Below are positions 1,186 through 18,674 of a DNA stretch of 20,079 nt, piece after piece. Made by a program: the position numbers and the translations under genes. This DNA is from a virus. Location of the stretch: IMG/VR virus record IMGVR_UViG_3300050025_000012, positions 1-20,079 of that record; one strand, given 5' to 3'. The number at the start of each line of letters is the position of its first letter. The first letter of the stretch is position 1. The notes under the pieces were generated by a model, which saw nothing but the letters and a program-made list of their open reading frames with translations, made no database searches and was not told the origin of the DNA.

Positions 1186-1527
1186 ATGGATAAGCAAAAT
1201 CTTTATTTAATTAAATTAGAAAACAAAAAAGAGTCTTTTTATAAAATAGGAACTTCCGTTCATAGGTATTGCCGTTTTTATCAAATAATGAAATTTGGTT
1301 ACAGGGCAACCATAATTTATATGTTGATGGGGTTAGATTGTCGTGACGCCATGCAAGCAGAGATGTATCTCCATGGTATTTTTAATCCTTACGATCCTAA
1401 AAAGAAATTTGGCGGATATAGAGAATGTTTTCAGGATATTGATATTGAATATTATAAATCAAAAATAAATAATTTAATCCCAAAATCAAAAGAAATAATA
1501 GAAAATTTGGAGATATCATGGCGCTGA
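1186..1527 (+). CDS. GIY-YIG/T5orf172-like stand-alone protein
   Basis: A 113-residue protein with a ribosome site GAGG five bases before the ATG. It follows the small GIY-YIG (T5orf172-like) layout. A first strand is LYLIKL (residues 6-11) and a second is FYKIGTSVHRYCRF (residues 18-31), with the usual KIG and following arginines. A helix then carries the acidic residue of MQAEMYLHGIF, and GGYRECF lies near residues 76-82. The classical GIY and YIG triplets are reduced to YLI and KIG, as usual in this subgroup, and activity is unproven. Related phage proteins are free-standing nucleases, some acting in homing. Its end overlaps the initiator gene by 10 bases. It is very A+T rich, unlike the resolvase gene upstream, so it looks recently acquired. 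Confidence 0.7.
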   Translation: MDKQNLYLIKLENKKESFYKIGTSVHRYCRFYQIMKFGYRATIIYMLMGLDCRDAMQAEMYLHGIFNPYDPKKKFGGYRECFQDIDIEYYKSKINNLIPKSKEIIENLEISWR

Positions 1528-2306
1528 GAGATCAACCTTATTTACCGTTGTATATTCAAGATTTTTTAACTGATGAAAAATTAATTGAATGTAGCGCGGA
1601 ATCAACCGGTGTTTATATTCGCCTAATGTGTATTTTACATAAATCAGATGAATATGGAAAAATTTTGCTTAAGCAAAAAGACAAGCAAGACTCTAAGCAG
1701 GTCAAAAATTTTGCTTTAAAGTTGCTTAAACAAATGCCCTACACTCTGGAGGTGATAGAAAAATCCCTACAAGAATTGATTAATGAAAAGGTCTTACTGA
1801 TAGAAGGTGATTATCTTTATCAAAAACGAATGGTTAAGGATAATAATATATCAATTAAAAGAGCTGAATCAGGTAAAAAAGGTGGAGAAAAGACTCAATT
1901 TGCTTCTAAATTTGCTAAAGCAAAAAGACAAGCAAACTCTGAAAATGAAAATGAAGATGAAAATGAAGATGTAAATAAAGATTTAATTAATAATAAATTA
2001 AGTACATTTGAGCAATTTTATCAATCCTACCCAAAAAAGAAATCCAAAGGGCAAGCAGAAAAAGCCTTTTTAAAAATCAATCCTGACGAGCAGCTCTTAG
2101 CGGTGATGATTGCATCCGTGGAGCGGGCCAAGACATCAGAAGATTGGATTAAGGAAAAAGGCAAGTATATTCCACATCCAGCAACATGGCTAAACGCTAA
2201 AGGCTGGCTTGATGAAGATACGGAAGCGCACCCCCTGGCCGGGAAAGTATCAGATAAAACAATCGGCACAGTAAGAATGCTTGATGAATGGAGGCCTCCG
2301 GTATGA
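1518..2306 (+). CDS. Replisome-organizer-like replication initiator (mosaic)
   Basis: A 262-residue two-part protein. Residues 1-130 start with MALRDQPYLPLYIQDFLTDE and SAESTGVYIRLMCILHKS, the pattern of replisome-organizer/DUF1376-type N-terminal domains that bind phage origins. A low-complexity acidic linker (ENENEDENEDVNKD, about residues 141-154) follows. The C-terminal part has FEQFYQSYPKKKSKGQAEKAF and IPHPATWLNAKGWLDE, a motif set found at the C-end of many phage O-like replication proteins, probably for contact with the helicase or its loader. GGAG lies seven bases before the ATG. The gene overlaps its upstream neighbour by 10 bases and the next gene by ATGA. Base composition changes sharply near 2040, at the linker/C-terminal boundary, which suggests a domain swap. 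Its 5' half carries a candidate origin. Confidence 0.8.
   Translation: MALRDQPYLPLYIQDFLTDEKLIECSAESTGVYIRLMCILHKSDEYGKILLKQKDKQDSKQVKNFALKLLKQMPYTLEVIEKSLQELINEKVLLIEGDYLYQKRMVKDNNISIKRAESGKKGGEKTQFASKFAKAKRQANSENENEDENEDVNKDLINNKLSTFEQFYQSYPKKKSKGQAEKAFLKINPDEQLLAVMIASVERAKTSEDWIKEKGKYIPHPATWLNAKGWLDEDTEAHPLAGKVSDKTIGTVRMLDEWRPPV
1663..1694 (+). repeat. Direct repeat copy A (32 bp)
   Basis: This copy matches 1910-1940, with the identical core AGCAAAAAGACAAGCAA and a shared ACTCT end. There are two substitutions in the left arm and one extra G in this copy. Here the shared DNA is read as KQKDKQDS; in the other copy it is read as AKAKRQANS. The conservation is therefore at DNA level. Confidence 0.75.
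1910..1940 (+). repeat. Direct repeat copy B (31 bp)
   Basis: Partner of the repeat at 1663-1694, lying 247 bases downstream and in another reading frame of the same gene. It immediately precedes the A+T-rich tract. Confidence 0.75.
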
Positions 2307-2845
2307 AAAACGAAATTAAATTCAAAGAGTATATGGCGACGCTTTGCGAGCTTCACGACCGCACAATGTCGAGATTATTAACGGATTTATACTGGAAAGT
2401 GCTTGAACCATTCACAGATGAACAATGCGAAGAAGCTTTTAAAGAAATTATTTATTCCAATAAATTCTTTCCAAAACCTGCTGATTTTCGTGAGGTTCTT
2501 TGCGGTAAAAAAGAAAATAAAGCAACTGAAGCATGGCTTGAGGTTTTAAACGCTGTTGCCCGGATAGGTAATTATAAAAGCGTAAAGTTTAACGATCCGG
2601 CAATACATTCGGTTATCAACGCAATGGGAGGATGGCCTCAACTTTGCCTCATGGAAAGCAAAGAAGAGAAGTGGAAGCAAAAAGAGTTTGAGCGCCTTTA
2701 TGATGTGATTAATTCTCGTGACGGAAAGCACCCTGAGTATTTACCCGGAACGCATGAAATGGAAAATTTCAGGATGGGAAATGAACTTGAAAGGGAAATT
2801 ATCAAGATCAGGCTAGATGGAAAAAGTAAGAAGCTTTTAAATTAA
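2303..2845 (+). CDS. Probable helicase-loader-type replication accessory protein
   Basis: The start at 2303 (180 residues) is chosen over an in-frame ATG at 2288 because GGAGG lies eight bases upstream and the ATG forms an ATGA overlap with the initiator gene. The N-terminal half is helical and contains TDEQCEEAFKEI and KFFPKPADFREVL. The second half contains AWLEVLNAVARIGNYKSVKF, then DPAIHSVINAMGGWPQL. These F-P-x-P-A-D-F and W...IG.Y..V.F.DP....I..MGG patterns recur in phage proteins encoded directly after initiators, where the lambda P-type helicase loader would be expected (inference from position). No ATPase motif is visible, so it is not a DnaC/DnaI-type loader. The C-terminal tail is charged. 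Confidence 0.65.
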   Translation: MKNEIKFKEYMATLCELHDRTMSRLLTDLYWKVLEPFTDEQCEEAFKEIIYSNKFFPKPADFREVLCGKKENKATEAWLEVLNAVARIGNYKSVKFNDPAIHSVINAMGGWPQLCLMESKEEKWKQKEFERLYDVINSRDGKHPEYLPGTHEMENFRMGNELEREIIKIRLDGKSKKLLN

Positions 2846-4887: not shown

Positions 4888-5085
4888 ATGTGTTTCGGAG
4901 GAAGTCCATCAGCATCACCTACGCCAGCACCGCCGCCACAGCAGGCAGACCCATCAGTTCAAGCGGCAGCCGACGCGGATATGCGGAGACGGAGAGCATC
5001 GGCAAGTAATACAACATTAACCAGTCCTCTGGGAGTAACCAAACCGGCAGACACAAAACCAAAAAGTCTTTTAGGGACAAACTAG
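4888..5085 (+). CDS. Small Pro/Ala-rich virion-region protein (MCFGG type)
   Basis: A 65-residue protein beginning MCFGGSPSASPTPAPPPQQ, then an ADADMRRRRASASN stretch and a TTLTSPLG...LLG end. Short proteins with an MCFGG start, proline-rich middle, RRR patch and LTxPLG...LLG tail are frequently encoded between the terminase and portal genes of podoviruses (family knowledge); their function is unknown. The best ribosome site, GAGGAGG (4868-4874), lies 13 bases upstream inside the end of the terminase gene, which is rather far. An overlapping 70-codon frame at 4797-5009 is basic and serine-rich without family resemblance and is rejected. Disorder is likely over most of the length. Confidence 0.75.
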   Translation: MCFGGSPSASPTPAPPPQQADPSVQAAADADMRRRRASASNTTLTSPLGVTKPADTKPKSLLGTN

Positions 5086-5094
5086 GAAAATTAA

Positions 5095-5385
5095 ATGGAC
5101 AATTTAACACTTGTAATAAATCAGGGCGTTTGGATCATGGGAAAACTCGACCTCGCTAAAAACAGAGTCAACGATCCTATGCGATTCATGACAGTGCGCA
5201 AGGCACCTAATTCGCCTGAGACCTTAATGGGGTTAGAATACTTCCCCGGCAAGCCCGCTTTCTGGGCCATGATAGGCGCGTATTCATACTATCCCGTCAA
5301 AGACGATGATATGATAGGGATGTATTTACAGGCGACCACGGGCCTTGTAGTGCCTGAGAAAAGCAAATTATCACTGGTGAGTTAA
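5095..5385 (+). CDS. Hypothetical small protein before portal
   Basis: A 96-residue protein with AGGA seven bases before its ATG. Visible features are GVWIMGKLDLAKNRV, AYSYYPVKDDDMIGMYLQ and a hydrophobic VVPEKSKLSLVS end. It has aromatic residues throughout and no signal peptide or membrane segment. I do not recognise it with confidence. Its place between terminase and portal suggests a packaging or head-assembly accessory role. An internal ATG at 5137 (MGKLDL) is possible but has no better ribosome site. The stop overlaps the start of the next small frame by one base (TAATG). Confidence 0.6.
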   Translation: MDNLTLVINQGVWIMGKLDLAKNRVNDPMRFMTVRKAPNSPETLMGLEYFPGKPAFWAMIGAYSYYPVKDDDMIGMYLQATTGLVVPEKSKLSLVS

Positions 5386-5474
5386 TGTCGGAAGATAGTA
5401 AAGAAATTATCAAAACATTAATCCGTGGGCTGAAACAAATGATAGGCTTACTGGAAGCACTTTTGAAAAAGTAA
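5385..5474 (+). CDS. 29-residue amphipathic helix peptide
   Basis: The start codon shares one base with the previous stop (TAATG), which favours translation by re-initiation. The sequence starts MSEDSKEIIKTLIRGLKQM and ends IGLLEALLKK. Leucine and isoleucine recur every three to four residues with charged residues between, so it should form one amphipathic helix, perhaps a coiled-coil or membrane-surface helix. It is too short for many gene callers. No family assignment is made. Support comes from the coupled start, clean helix pattern and lack of any competing gene in this stretch. Confidence 0.5.
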   Translation: MSEDSKEIIKTLIRGLKQMIGLLEALLKK

Positions 5475-10617: not shown

Positions 10618-10624
10618 ATTATGA
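10535..10624 (+). CDS. Small overlapping frame (29 residues)
   Basis: In the +1 frame relative to the upstream gene, an ATG at 10535 opens a 29-residue frame. It starts MYAVPQVIMEIMGREPDQIF and ends PDTSWAFKL, and its stop overlaps the next start as ATGA (10621-10624). Its composition is more protein-like than the low-complexity tail the upstream gene has over the same DNA. It may be a real small gene whose upstream neighbour has lost its stop and reads through it. The ribosome site is weak (GGTGG). Expression is unproven. Confidence 0.4.
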   Translation: MYAVPQVIMEIMGREPDQIFPDTSWAFKL

Positions 10625-11220
10625 TTCATATCGTAATGGGATTCAATAGACCATCTATGGCGAATATCTATGCAGACTTTTTCCGTCCGCAAGATATTAT
10701 ATTACATCCCATTATGCGTGACAACATTGTTGATTGGCCGCCGGAAAAGTGGATTAATCCAATAGTCTCACCTGTTCGTCCGAAAGTAATAATAGACGGT
10801 CTTTATTTTAAATTCAATTACTTTATCGAAAACCAGCCAATAAATGATGAAGATCATTATATGTTTCTCTGTGATGATGACTCGATTGAAGGAAATGTTA
10901 TTAGCGAGATCAAGAAAATGGATGATCCTGTAATATTCATTTCGATGAAACGCGGACACAATATAAACTATGAGCACCCATCAAATACTTGGCATGGTAC
11001 GAACACGCTTTATGCTAGGCCGGAATGTATTAAAGTATGCGAGGTAGGTCTTGAACAGTTCATAATAAAAGGAAAGATTTTAAAAGAAGTCAGGTTTGTA
11101 GATCATAATTGGGCTGATGGTTATATGTGCGAATATTTAAAAGAACATTATCCTGTTACGTATAGGGAGGATTTATTTTCCTTGTTTAATTTTTATGAGC
11201 CGGGAAGGTGGGATAAATGA
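10621..11220 (+). CDS. Glycosyltransferase-like protein with DDD motif
   Basis: A 199-residue protein. The start MIHIVMGFNRPSMANIYADF resembles the first strand of a GT-A fold, and residues 80-93 (YMFLCDDDSIEGNV) carry an acidic triplet D85-D87 in the place of the metal/nucleotide-sugar binding DxD. A later HGTNTLYARPE and VDHNWADGYMCEYLKEHYPV provide a second acidic region, as expected for an acceptor or catalytic site. At 199 residues it is a minimal GT-A domain. It is coupled on both sides by ATGA overlaps and is A+T rich. A likely role is adding a sugar to virion proteins, phage DNA or a host surface polymer. Donor and acceptor cannot be inferred. Confidence 0.65.
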   Translation: MIHIVMGFNRPSMANIYADFFRPQDIILHPIMRDNIVDWPPEKWINPIVSPVRPKVIIDGLYFKFNYFIENQPINDEDHYMFLCDDDSIEGNVISEIKKMDDPVIFISMKRGHNINYEHPSNTWHGTNTLYARPECIKVCEVGLEQFIIKGKILKEVRFVDHNWADGYMCEYLKEHYPVTYREDLFSLFNFYEPGRWDK

Positions 11221-12890
11221 TTACAGATGAAACTATCACGGGTATAGTTGTAACCCATAATACAAAAGATTTATTCCAACGGGCTTACGAGTCTGTCAGG
11301 AAGTTTCATCCTGGTATGAAAATAATCATAGTTAACGGGTCGGATAAAAACAATCCCTGCCGTAAATACGTTGAGTCTCTTTCTGACGATAAAACTATGG
11401 TTATTAAGTCCGATGTGAATATCGGTCATGGGCGCGGGATTAATTGGGCGCTGGGGTTTGTCAAAACTCCTTATGCCCTGATCTTCGATTCCGATATTGA
11501 AATGATCAAGTCTCCGGTAGAAGAAATGATGACCTCTCTGGAAGATGATATCTATGGAGTCGGCACAGTCATCAAGACCGATTTGGGCGGTTTTAACTTC
11601 GGAGAACGGCCGGACGAAAGTAAGTTGGGATCAATGAAATACCTCCAGCCTTATTTTTGCCTGATACAAATAGCGGAATATAAAAAGTACGCTCCCTTTA
11701 TTCATCATGGTGCGCCTGCCGTTTCAACTTGTCTTGATATTCGCCGCAGAGGATTAGATAAAGCAATCAAGAACTTTGACCTTTCTGGATATATCAAACA
11801 TGATTTCTACGGGACTAGAGGCGTAAGAGTTGCGGCAAACAAACCTGAAATAGAGGACGAGTGGGATAAAGTAATTAAACCTAATAGTATCACTTGCATA
11901 ACCTGTACCGGAGATAGGATCGTTGCTTTTGATTTGTGCGCGAGATGGATGCAAGATCAAACTATTATTCCATCTCAGTGGATCGTAATTGACGATGGGA
12001 AAATACCCATGGCCAATATTCCTAAAAATTGCGAATACATCCGCCGTGAGCCGCAAAAGAATGATCCACTTCATACCATGGTCATTAATCTTAAATTGGC
12101 ATTGTCAAAAGTGACTGGCGATAAAATAATAATCATTGAAGATGACGAGTACTATGCACCCGAGTACATCAAGGAAATGTCTAAACAACTTAATGGATAT
12201 GATCTTGTTGGTATAGGAAAGAGTAAATATTATAACATTCAGGCATTTAAGTATTACCAGCATAACGGTAAAGAGTTCTCCGATCATGCGTCATTGGCTC
12301 AAACAGCTTTTAAGAAATCTTTAATTCCATCAATCTTAGGAAAAATGAACGGCGATCAATTCCTAGACATTAGAATATGGCAAGGACTCAAAGGCAATGC
12401 CCATATTTTGGTTGATGACAAAGAAAGCCTTTATGTGGGGATGAAAGGTTTGCCCGGCCGCTCAGGGATAGGCTCAGGGCATAATCCTAATATGGAAGGT
12501 TACAAAAACGACAATAATAAAACAGTTCTTAAGGAATGGATAAAAAACAAGAAACATCTTGACTTATATTTAGATTTAAAAATTAAAGCATCAGAAAGGA
12601 GAGAATCAATGGGAACATATAAAGCAATTGAAAACGGTGGACACATCCATCCCAATAGTCCGCACAAGTCATCTCTTTACGGGGTGATACGTCCGGGAAC
12701 TGTCTTCACGTATGAAGGGCCGAAAGGCAGTTGGATGCAACCTATTGACGAACCTGAAAAGAAAATAGTGCCGGTCGAGGAGCTTCCATTTTACGCCGCC
12801 GCAAAGAAAATAGCGGACGACAAAGGTGACCCGGCACTCGATCAAACGCCGCTTTCGCCTGCGCCAAAACTTAAAGGGAAAAAGAAATGA
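11217..12890 (+). CDS. Tandem-domain glycosyltransferase (GT2-like) fused to a small C-terminal domain
   Basis: A 557-residue protein with three parts. Residues 1-215 are GT2-like: TGIVVTHNTKDLFQRAYESV, GHGRGINWALGFVKTP and a DSD motif in LIFDSDIEM (88-96). Residues 223-445 are a second GT-A-like unit: SITCITCTGDRI, WIVIDDGKIP (255-264) and IIIIEDDEYYAPEYI (304-318), with acidic residues for metal and nucleotide-sugar binding. Residues 465-557 are a small domain (see the nested start at 12609). Two different GT units in one chain suggest successive transfer of two sugars or a repeat polymer. No membrane segment is seen, so it acts in the cytoplasm. Its stop overlaps the adaptor start by ATGA and its start overlaps the previous gene. 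Confidence 0.75.
   Translation: MITDETITGIVVTHNTKDLFQRAYESVRKFHPGMKIIIVNGSDKNNPCRKYVESLSDDKTMVIKSDVNIGHGRGINWALGFVKTPYALIFDSDIEMIKSPVEEMMTSLEDDIYGVGTVIKTDLGGFNFGERPDESKLGSMKYLQPYFCLIQIAEYKKYAPFIHHGAPAVSTCLDIRRRGLDKAIKNFDLSGYIKHDFYGTRGVRVAANKPEIEDEWDKVIKPNSITCITCTGDRIVAFDLCARWMQDQTIIPSQWIVIDDGKIPMANIPKNCEYIRREPQKNDPLHTMVINLKLALSKVTGDKIIIIEDDEYYAPEYIKEMSKQLNGYDLVGIGKSKYYNIQAFKYYQHNGKEFSDHASLAQTAFKKSLIPSILGKMNGDQFLDIRIWQGLKGNAHILVDDKESLYVGMKGLPGRSGIGSGHNPNMEGYKNDNNKTVLKEWIKNKKHLDLYLDLKIKASERRESMGTYKAIENGGHIHPNSPHKSSLYGVIRPGTVFTYEGPKGSWMQPIDEPEKKIVPVEELPFYAAAKKIADDKGDPALDQTPLSPAPKLKGKKK
12609..12890 (+). CDS. Nested in-frame gene: small virion-type protein from an internal start
   Basis: Codon 465 of the glycosyltransferase frame is an ATG at 12609, preceded by AAGGAG (12596-12601) at seven-base spacing, a better ribosome site than that of the full gene. 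The 93-residue product starts MGTYKAIENGGHIHPNSPHK and contains SLYGVIRPGTVFTYEG, then KGSWMQPIDEPEKK and a Pro/Lys-rich tail. Small stand-alone phage proteins with a YKA...G.I.....I..G.VF.Y.G..GSWM.P.DE pattern are common near head-tail genes (from memory). This suggests an ancestral separate gene now read in frame with its upstream neighbour. Both the fusion and the short product may be made. Confidence 0.6.
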   Translation: MGTYKAIENGGHIHPNSPHKSSLYGVIRPGTVFTYEGPKGSWMQPIDEPEKKIVPVEELPFYAAAKKIADDKGDPALDQTPLSPAPKLKGKKK

Positions 12891-18161: not shown

Positions 18162-18674
18162 ATGGTAGCAGTAGCAGGATTAGTTATCGCGGCAGTTGGC
18201 GCGGCAGTGGCGGGAGCTTCCGCAATTCAGCAAGGACAGAACGCCAGAACGCAGGCGAACATGACGGCAGATGCCCAGAAGAACACCGCTGTTAGTGTTG
18301 AGAATCAAGCGGCAGCAGTTGCCTCAAACGAGAAAATGAAAGCCAGAAGGATTGAAGCCTCTCAAGTGGCCGCCGCTGGCGCCGGTGGAGTAAGCCCTTC
18401 AACCGGTACGCCGTTGACTATCGAAACCCAGACCGCAGAATTCGGCGAACTGAACAGTTTACAGATAATAAACAATGCTCAAAGGACGGCATGGGGATAT
18501 AATACAGAGGCGAATATAACGCAGTTCGGCGGAGAGCAGAAACAAGACGCGAGTTATCTTCAAGCCGGTGGCAGTTTGTTGGGTGGTGCGTCAAGCGCAT
18601 CTTTTGGATATGCGGGAGCCGGAAAGGGTGGTGTGTCAAGCGCATCTGTTGGATATGCGGGAGCCGGAAAATGA
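18162..18674 (+). CDS. Internal virion/ejection protein, T7 gp14-like
   Basis: A 170-residue protein with a hydrophobic Ala/Gly/Val N-terminus, VAVAGLVIAAVGAAVAGASA (residues 2-21), which could insert in a membrane. A helical, glutamine/alanine-rich body follows, with EKMKARRIEASQVAAAGAGG, VSPSTGTPL, and LNSLQIINNAQRTAWGYNTE then AN (about 58-118). The order of hydrophobic start, AGAAG-type turn and A.GY..EA repeat is typical of gp14-like proteins that leave the capsid with the DNA and cross the host envelope. The C-terminus is a two-copy 15-residue repeat (18582-18671). ATGA couples it to the large internal protein gene. The ribosome site is GGAG in GGATTGGAGTTGTAAT. Confidence 0.8.
   Translation: MVAVAGLVIAAVGAAVAGASAIQQGQNARTQANMTADAQKNTAVSVENQAAAVASNEKMKARRIEASQVAAAGAGGVSPSTGTPLTIETQTAEFGELNSLQIINNAQRTAWGYNTEANITQFGGEQKQDASYLQAGGSLLGGASSASFGYAGAGKGGVSSASVGYAGAGK
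18582..18671 (+). repeat. Tandem duplication, 2 x 45 bp, at the end of the ejection protein gene
   Basis: Unit 1 (18582-18626) and unit 2 (18627-18671) differ at only three of 45 bases. Each encodes GG(A/V)SSAS(F/V)GYAGAGK, and unit 2 ends directly at the stop codon. Two of the differences change amino acids (A/V, F/V); the third (AAG/AAA) is silent. The high identity indicates a recent duplication. Confidence 0.95.

Follow-up and report, generated by a model that had tools for sequence, protein, structure and literature searches.

A Putative Initiator-Binding Replication Origin Embedded in Two Reading Frames of a Phage Initiator Gene

A region of a tailed-phage genome fragment is, with high probability, an initiator-binding origin of replication, composed of iterons and an unwinding element and embedded in the initiator's own gene. 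This assignment is drawn from sequence patterns in the fragment and in its relatives, which bear out the observations of the preliminary description and, to the extent that sequence can show, its interpretation. Embedded origins are a known kind; the unusual part here is the layout, in which two arrays occupy two reading frames, together with a coordinated switching of the half-site.

Repeats in the initiator gene

The window analyzed here is an entire IMG/VR record of 20,079 bases, a fragment whose plus strand carries genes for terminase, the head-tail connector, and the tail. Its replication initiator gene (1518–2306, plus strand) encodes 262 amino acids and matches the replication initiation protein family phrog_270 (E 3.6e-20), as well as phrog_9474 and phrog_9327. 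It is directly preceded by an endonuclease-domain-like gene (1186–1527, plus strand; phrog_681, E 2e-12, with a weak T5orf172 match at E 0.088) and followed by a DUF6475 gene (2288–2845, plus strand; PF20081, E 8e-17), whose product we infer to be a candidate replication partner of the initiator C-terminal domain.

Two pairs of direct repeats lie within the initiator gene. A 32-nt stretch at 1663–1694 (TTTTGCTTAAGCAAAAAGACAAGCAAGACTCT) recurs as 31 nt at 1910–1940 (ATTTGCTAAAGCAAAAAGACAAGCAAACTCT), with two substitutions and a one-base difference in length, and the 13-nt sequence AAAAATTTTGCTT is present in identical copies at 1658 and 1704. The first bases of the longer repeat's copies fall at codon phases 1 and 2, and those of the shorter repeat's at phases 2 and 0, which bears out the statement in the preliminary description that both pairs lie in different frames. 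The perfect 16-base palindrome that it reported is TTTTGCTTAAGCAAAA at 1663–1678, which equals its own reverse complement and forms the first half-site dyad of block 1. The palindrome codes ILLKQK, in a loop of the N-terminal domain, and is kept in 81 relatives with its arms co-varying. As for the "about nine" TTGCTT/AAGCAA copies, eight are exact (1665, 1671, 1683, 1711, 1722, 1900, 1918, and 1930), and three further copies are near-sites: AAGCAG at 1695, AAACAA at 1728, and TTGCTA at 1912.

The half-sites form two arrays. Array A (1663–1733; block 1) comprises the dyad at 1663–1678, AAGCAA at 1683, AAGCAG at 1695, TTGCTT at 1711, and TTGCTT at 1722 with AAACAA at 1728, with spacings of 12, 12, and 11 bp. 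Array B (1900–1935; block 2) lies in the other reading frame and comprises TTGCTT at 1900, TTGCTA at 1912, and AAGCAA at 1918 and 1930; it codes FASKFAKAKRQA and was compared across 77 relatives. Over the whole window, AAGCAA/TTGCTT occurs 32 times versus 17.5 ± 4.2 in dinucleotide shuffles. Within the initiator ORF, AAGCAA occurs 8 times versus 2.2 expected from 300 synonymous-codon shuffles of that ORF (P = 0.003). A repeat test using synonymous-codon shuffles finds 44 repeated 8-mer pairs in the initiator ORF versus 17.2 ± 5.5 (z = 4.9), and lambda O, the positive control, scores z = 6.6. Only one other gene in the window exceeds z = 3, with a tandem duplication at 18162–18674.

Conservation at the DNA level

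Relatives were drawn from IMG/VR and GTDB contigs, yielding 97 non-redundant initiators, 96 of which were usable. The 48 aligned relatives share 52–72% identity with the window's N-terminal domain. Contigs with this domain come from metagenome bins assigned to Syntrophaceae, Clostridia, Bacillales, and Bacteroidales, which leaves the hosts uncertain. Among cultured phages, no close N-terminal relative was found, the best being a weak match to Bacteroides phage Versailles (26% identity, E 7e-3).

Comparison of about 96 non-redundant relatives demonstrates that selection, as read from their sequences, acts on DNA rather than peptide in both repeat blocks. The repeat test exceeds z = 3 in 63 of 96 initiators versus 12% of 305 other ORFs used as negative controls, and the synonymous-shuffle excess of the half-site is present in the window and in most relatives; a few relatives have no clear array (L050, L155, and L159). 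Codon usage in both blocks is strongly unlike that in the remainder of the same genes. In block 1, Lys before Gln is AAG 158 times and AAA 29 times, versus 706 and 1710 elsewhere; in block 2, Ala before Lys or Asn is GCA in 214 of 263 cases versus 293 of 843 elsewhere. Preservation of the repeats at synonymous sites, which the preliminary description had named as a check on its proposal, is found in about 90 relatives, where the repeats lie in different frames and change in a coordinated manner.

Conservation among the relatives extends to the peptides LLKQKDKQ and FAxAKxxAN; the frame of block 1 codes LLKQK and that of block 2 codes FAxAK. In three relatives (L147, L154, and L100), block 2 gives LLKQ/LFKQ-type peptides in place of FAxAK and the repeat is retained. 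A GK-rich loop substitutes for KQKDKQ in block 1 of two others (L044 and L048), again with the matching repeat retained, and in L051 the half-site is present in all three frames. Same-strand half-sites across the relatives are spaced by 12 (217 cases), 24 (73), 11 (38), 23 (22), and 36 bp (22), and also by 22 bp. Because these spacings include non-multiples of three, helical spacing rather than codon phase sets the distance. The initiator coding sequence has one hallmark of embedded origins, namely, repeated sites that are selected as DNA.

In L049 (initiator at about 5001–5438), the block 1 repeats are lost and block 2 has four tandem 12-bp units of the CCTATCGCAAAA type; TCGCAAA is found five times in this initiator, and no 350-bp stretch elsewhere has more than one copy. 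Other ORFs close to the initiator, in L029 (3898–4606) and L091 (9456–10530), are extremely repetitive internally (z = 29 and 24, respectively).

Half-site variants that change together

The half-site variant matches between blocks 1 and 2 in 78 of the 79 loci classed in both. Identical half-sites in the two blocks are AAGCAAA in 48 of 70 loci, AAACAAA in 4, and CGGCAAA in 3. Blocks 1 and 2 have 1256 7-mers in common versus 815 ± 36 when permuted, a value that exceeds all permutations, and the 24 loci without AAGCAA in block 1 have 261 versus 100 ± 24. The dyad arms co-vary within each block (at one pair, C-G in 68 and T-A in 6), and dyad symmetry is maintained in both blocks despite the half-site change. 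The best tree has approximately six half-site switches, only one of them on strongly supported branches, and kinship limits the counts; a tree-based test of joint switching had only one pair on strongly supported branches, which is too few.

It is possible, and we offer the reading tentatively, that the origin DNA dictates the protein. The loop and linker peptides would then be passengers of 8–12 binding sites in two frames, and a lineage would change origin specificity by a joint switch of all sites from AAGCAAA to either AAACAAA or CGGCAAA; the winged helix would presumably change to match. Residues that correlate with half-site class (T30, K71, and others) were set aside as confounded by kinship and by repeat-coding columns.

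A+T-rich tract and search for other origins

The A+T-rich tract at 1940–2011, a candidate DNA unwinding element, codes an acidic segment (SENENEDENEDVNKD...) with 11–12 G/C per 70 bases. The 70-base tract with 12 G/C noted earlier corresponds to 1941–2010; the local minimum is 11, in 1942–2011, which ranks second among the A+T-rich 70-mers of the window. The most A+T-rich 70-mer of the window (1436–1505, 9 G/C) lies outside the proposed origin, in the final part of the endonuclease-like gene upstream.

Mean GC in the relatives is 0.265 in the acidic tract after block 2, 0.386 in the other initiator ORF sequence, and 0.405 in the loci. Glu is encoded by GAA in 521 of 549 tract codons versus 1158 of 1725 elsewhere and, at loci with a GC content of at least 42%, in 178 of 195 versus 330 of 631. 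The tract keeps its A+T richness in most GC-rich phages, the exceptions among GC-rich loci being L155, L088, and L160. By composition, 1940–2011 fits the adjacent A+T-rich unwinding element of an embedded origin, its melting being putative.

A search for better iterons elsewhere covered the window and 15 relatives with contigs of 34–52 kb and found none. In all 15 relatives, the densest half-site cluster is in the initiator gene. The initiator has 5–12 half-sites per 350 bp versus at most 4 anywhere else; for the AAGCAAA class the motif was taken from the window, but for variant classes it was read from the initiator itself, which biases the comparison in favor of the initiator. GC skew in these long relatives runs mostly in one direction along the contig, with extremes mostly at contig ends; only in G006 does the skew minimum (25972) fall next to the initiator (26058), possibly by chance. 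The GC skew of the window, a 20-kb fragment, was uninformative, the DnaA-box pattern TTWTNCACA has zero occurrences in the window, and a promoter scan gave no excess worth reading.

Initiator protein and mosaic structure

The initiator is laid out as an N-terminal winged-helix domain (amino acids 1 to ~141), a repeat-coding linker, an acidic tract, and a C-terminal domain (amino acids ~161–235). AlphaFold predicts a winged helix for the N-terminal domain (pLDDT 81), in which block 1 falls in a strand-loop segment and block 2 near the end of a long helix. A fold search of the PDB returned largely generic winged-helix hits, with no E-value under 0.001. The N-terminal domain is likely distantly akin to DUF1376. 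In addition to the winged-helix prediction, it has weak profile similarity to DUF1376, DnaD-N, and Phage_rep_org_N winged-helix proteins, in that 35 of the 49 members match DUF1376 weakly, the best of them at E 3.8e-4, and 5 match DnaD_N. The window protein itself stays below the threshold for DUF1376, scoring 14.1 bits versus the Pfam gathering score of 30.1.

The C-terminal domain (1998–2306, plus strand) is a candidate partner-recruiting domain, with matches in IMG/VR and INPHARED that begin at approximately residue 159–164. Many relatives match the window protein only over amino acids 1 to ~140–160, and others only from about residue 159–164. L002, L007, and L020 each have a 53–56% identical counterpart of the upstream gene (1186–1527) at the same position, beside the shared N-terminal domain, and this gene is probably carried along with the initiator cassette; in L046 and L052, the DUF6475 gene accompanies the shared C-terminal domain. 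G+C content is ~0.28–0.33 over 1100–2010 and then 0.45, with the step at about 2010. Taken together, the partial matches, the gene linkage, and the G+C step place a junction most likely just after the A+T tract. Both the mosaic relatives and the step near 2010 support the earlier suggestion that the N-terminal domain and the repeats were acquired as one segment. The cassette comprises the N-terminal domain, the iterons, and the A+T tract, which move as a unit and join unrelated C-terminal domains.

Unrelated N-termini are found on initiators with the same C-terminal domain, several with their own linker repeats (L058, L064, and L067); origins embedded in this way may be a general feature of the C-terminal family. 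The repeated 6-mers at L058, L064, L067, and L053, which all have this C-terminal domain, are TCGGAC, GGGACA, GCGGAC, and CGGTAC.

Proposed mechanism and alternatives

In the mechanism that we propose, the half-site AAGCAAA would be recognized by the N-terminal winged helix, which probably acts as a dimer. Each of the two arrays is built on a dyad, TTTGC(n4)GCAAA, followed by half-sites every 11–12 bp on roughly the same face of the DNA; the array at 1663–1733 codes a loop within the DNA-binding domain, and that at 1900–1935 codes the linker. Binding may load or bend the DNA, melting the adjoining A+T tract at 1940–2011, after which the host helicase would be recruited by the C-terminal domain, perhaps aided by the DUF6475 protein encoded downstream. 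Binding by the N-terminal domain, melting, helicase loading, and origin activity are suggested by analogy with lambda and SPP1; what is observed with respect to initiator binding of the repeats is co-transfer and co-variation only.

Initiators often both autoregulate and act at origins. The repeats could instead be autoregulatory operators, through which the initiator blocks transcription of its own gene, with the origin located elsewhere. A repressor array would also be compatible with a dyad and phased half-sites, and the initiator is a predicted winged-helix protein. However, the sites lie 150–420 bp into the gene rather than at its start, the conserved A+T-rich tract comes directly after them, and the annotation of the protein family is replication initiation. 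We regard operators with an origin elsewhere as improbable; autoregulation and an origin role are compatible.

A signal that acts in the mRNA, as hairpins or as an RNA-binding site, is very improbable. Co-variation of the dyad arms speaks for it, as does the folding of array B, which is somewhat stronger than that of shuffled sequence (z = −2.0 to −2.2). Against it, the array A sense strand folds no better than shuffles (z = −0.6), direct repeats at 11–12 bp do not pair mutually, and the same repeat test detects known DNA iterons, those of lambda O. Least credible, and already contradicted, is that the repeats are a by-product of a KQ/AK-rich charged peptide needed by the protein: LLKQKDKQ and FAxAKxxAN are conserved, but codon usage is far from the genes' own, the same DNA gives different peptides in two frames (and LLKQ/LFKQ-type peptides from block 2 of L147, L154, and L100), the 11- and 23-bp spacings disregard codons, and L044 and L048 keep the matching repeat under a GK-rich loop.

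Comparison with known origins

The embedded origin proposed here has two well-described counterparts. Phage lambda oriO has iterons and then an A+T-rich tract within the initiator gene and is bound by the initiator (PMC7466680); in NC_001416, the annotated iterons are at 39034–39118 inside O. The window is like oriO in having iterons and an A+T-rich tract inside the initiator gene, and the term "lambda-type" used in the preliminary description holds for this layout. It does not extend to homology of the initiator with lambda O, for which searches were run: Phage_rep_O (PF04492) has no match in the window protein and matches 1 of 49 relatives at E 0.084. In lambda, a single array holds four 18-bp iterons 20–24 bp apart, whereas the window has two arrays ~170 bp apart in different frames, with 6–7 bp half-sites at 11–12 bp, and one of these arrays falls within the stretch that encodes the DNA-binding domain. 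SPP1 oriL lies in the phage's initiator gene, gene 38 (replisome organizer G38P), which contains direct repeats together with an A+T-rich unwinding element (PMC6316719), and the window is similar in both respects. SPP1 also has a second origin, oriR; none is seen in the window, which is a fragment. A literature search restricted mostly to non-subscription journals turned up no account of iterons preserved in two reading frames.

Through this analysis, an initiator family without a Pfam assignment gains a candidate origin and half-site across approximately 100 mostly uncultivated phages. Because the same site, with three spelling variants, occurs in two reading frames, co-evolution of initiator and origin is directly testable, and the variant pairs predict which initiator would fire which origin. 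Repeats beyond synonymous expectation in initiator genes also provide a simple origin finder for metagenomic phages.

Two observations concern the remainder of the window. The near-identical tandem duplication at 18162–18674 (repeat test z = 4.5), with the C-terminal sequence GGxSSASxGYAGAGK, looks recent. Within the structural gene region, 10621–12890 contains two ORFs that, by eye, may be glycosyltransferases (VTHNTKDLFQRAYESVRKFHPGMKIIIVNG...).
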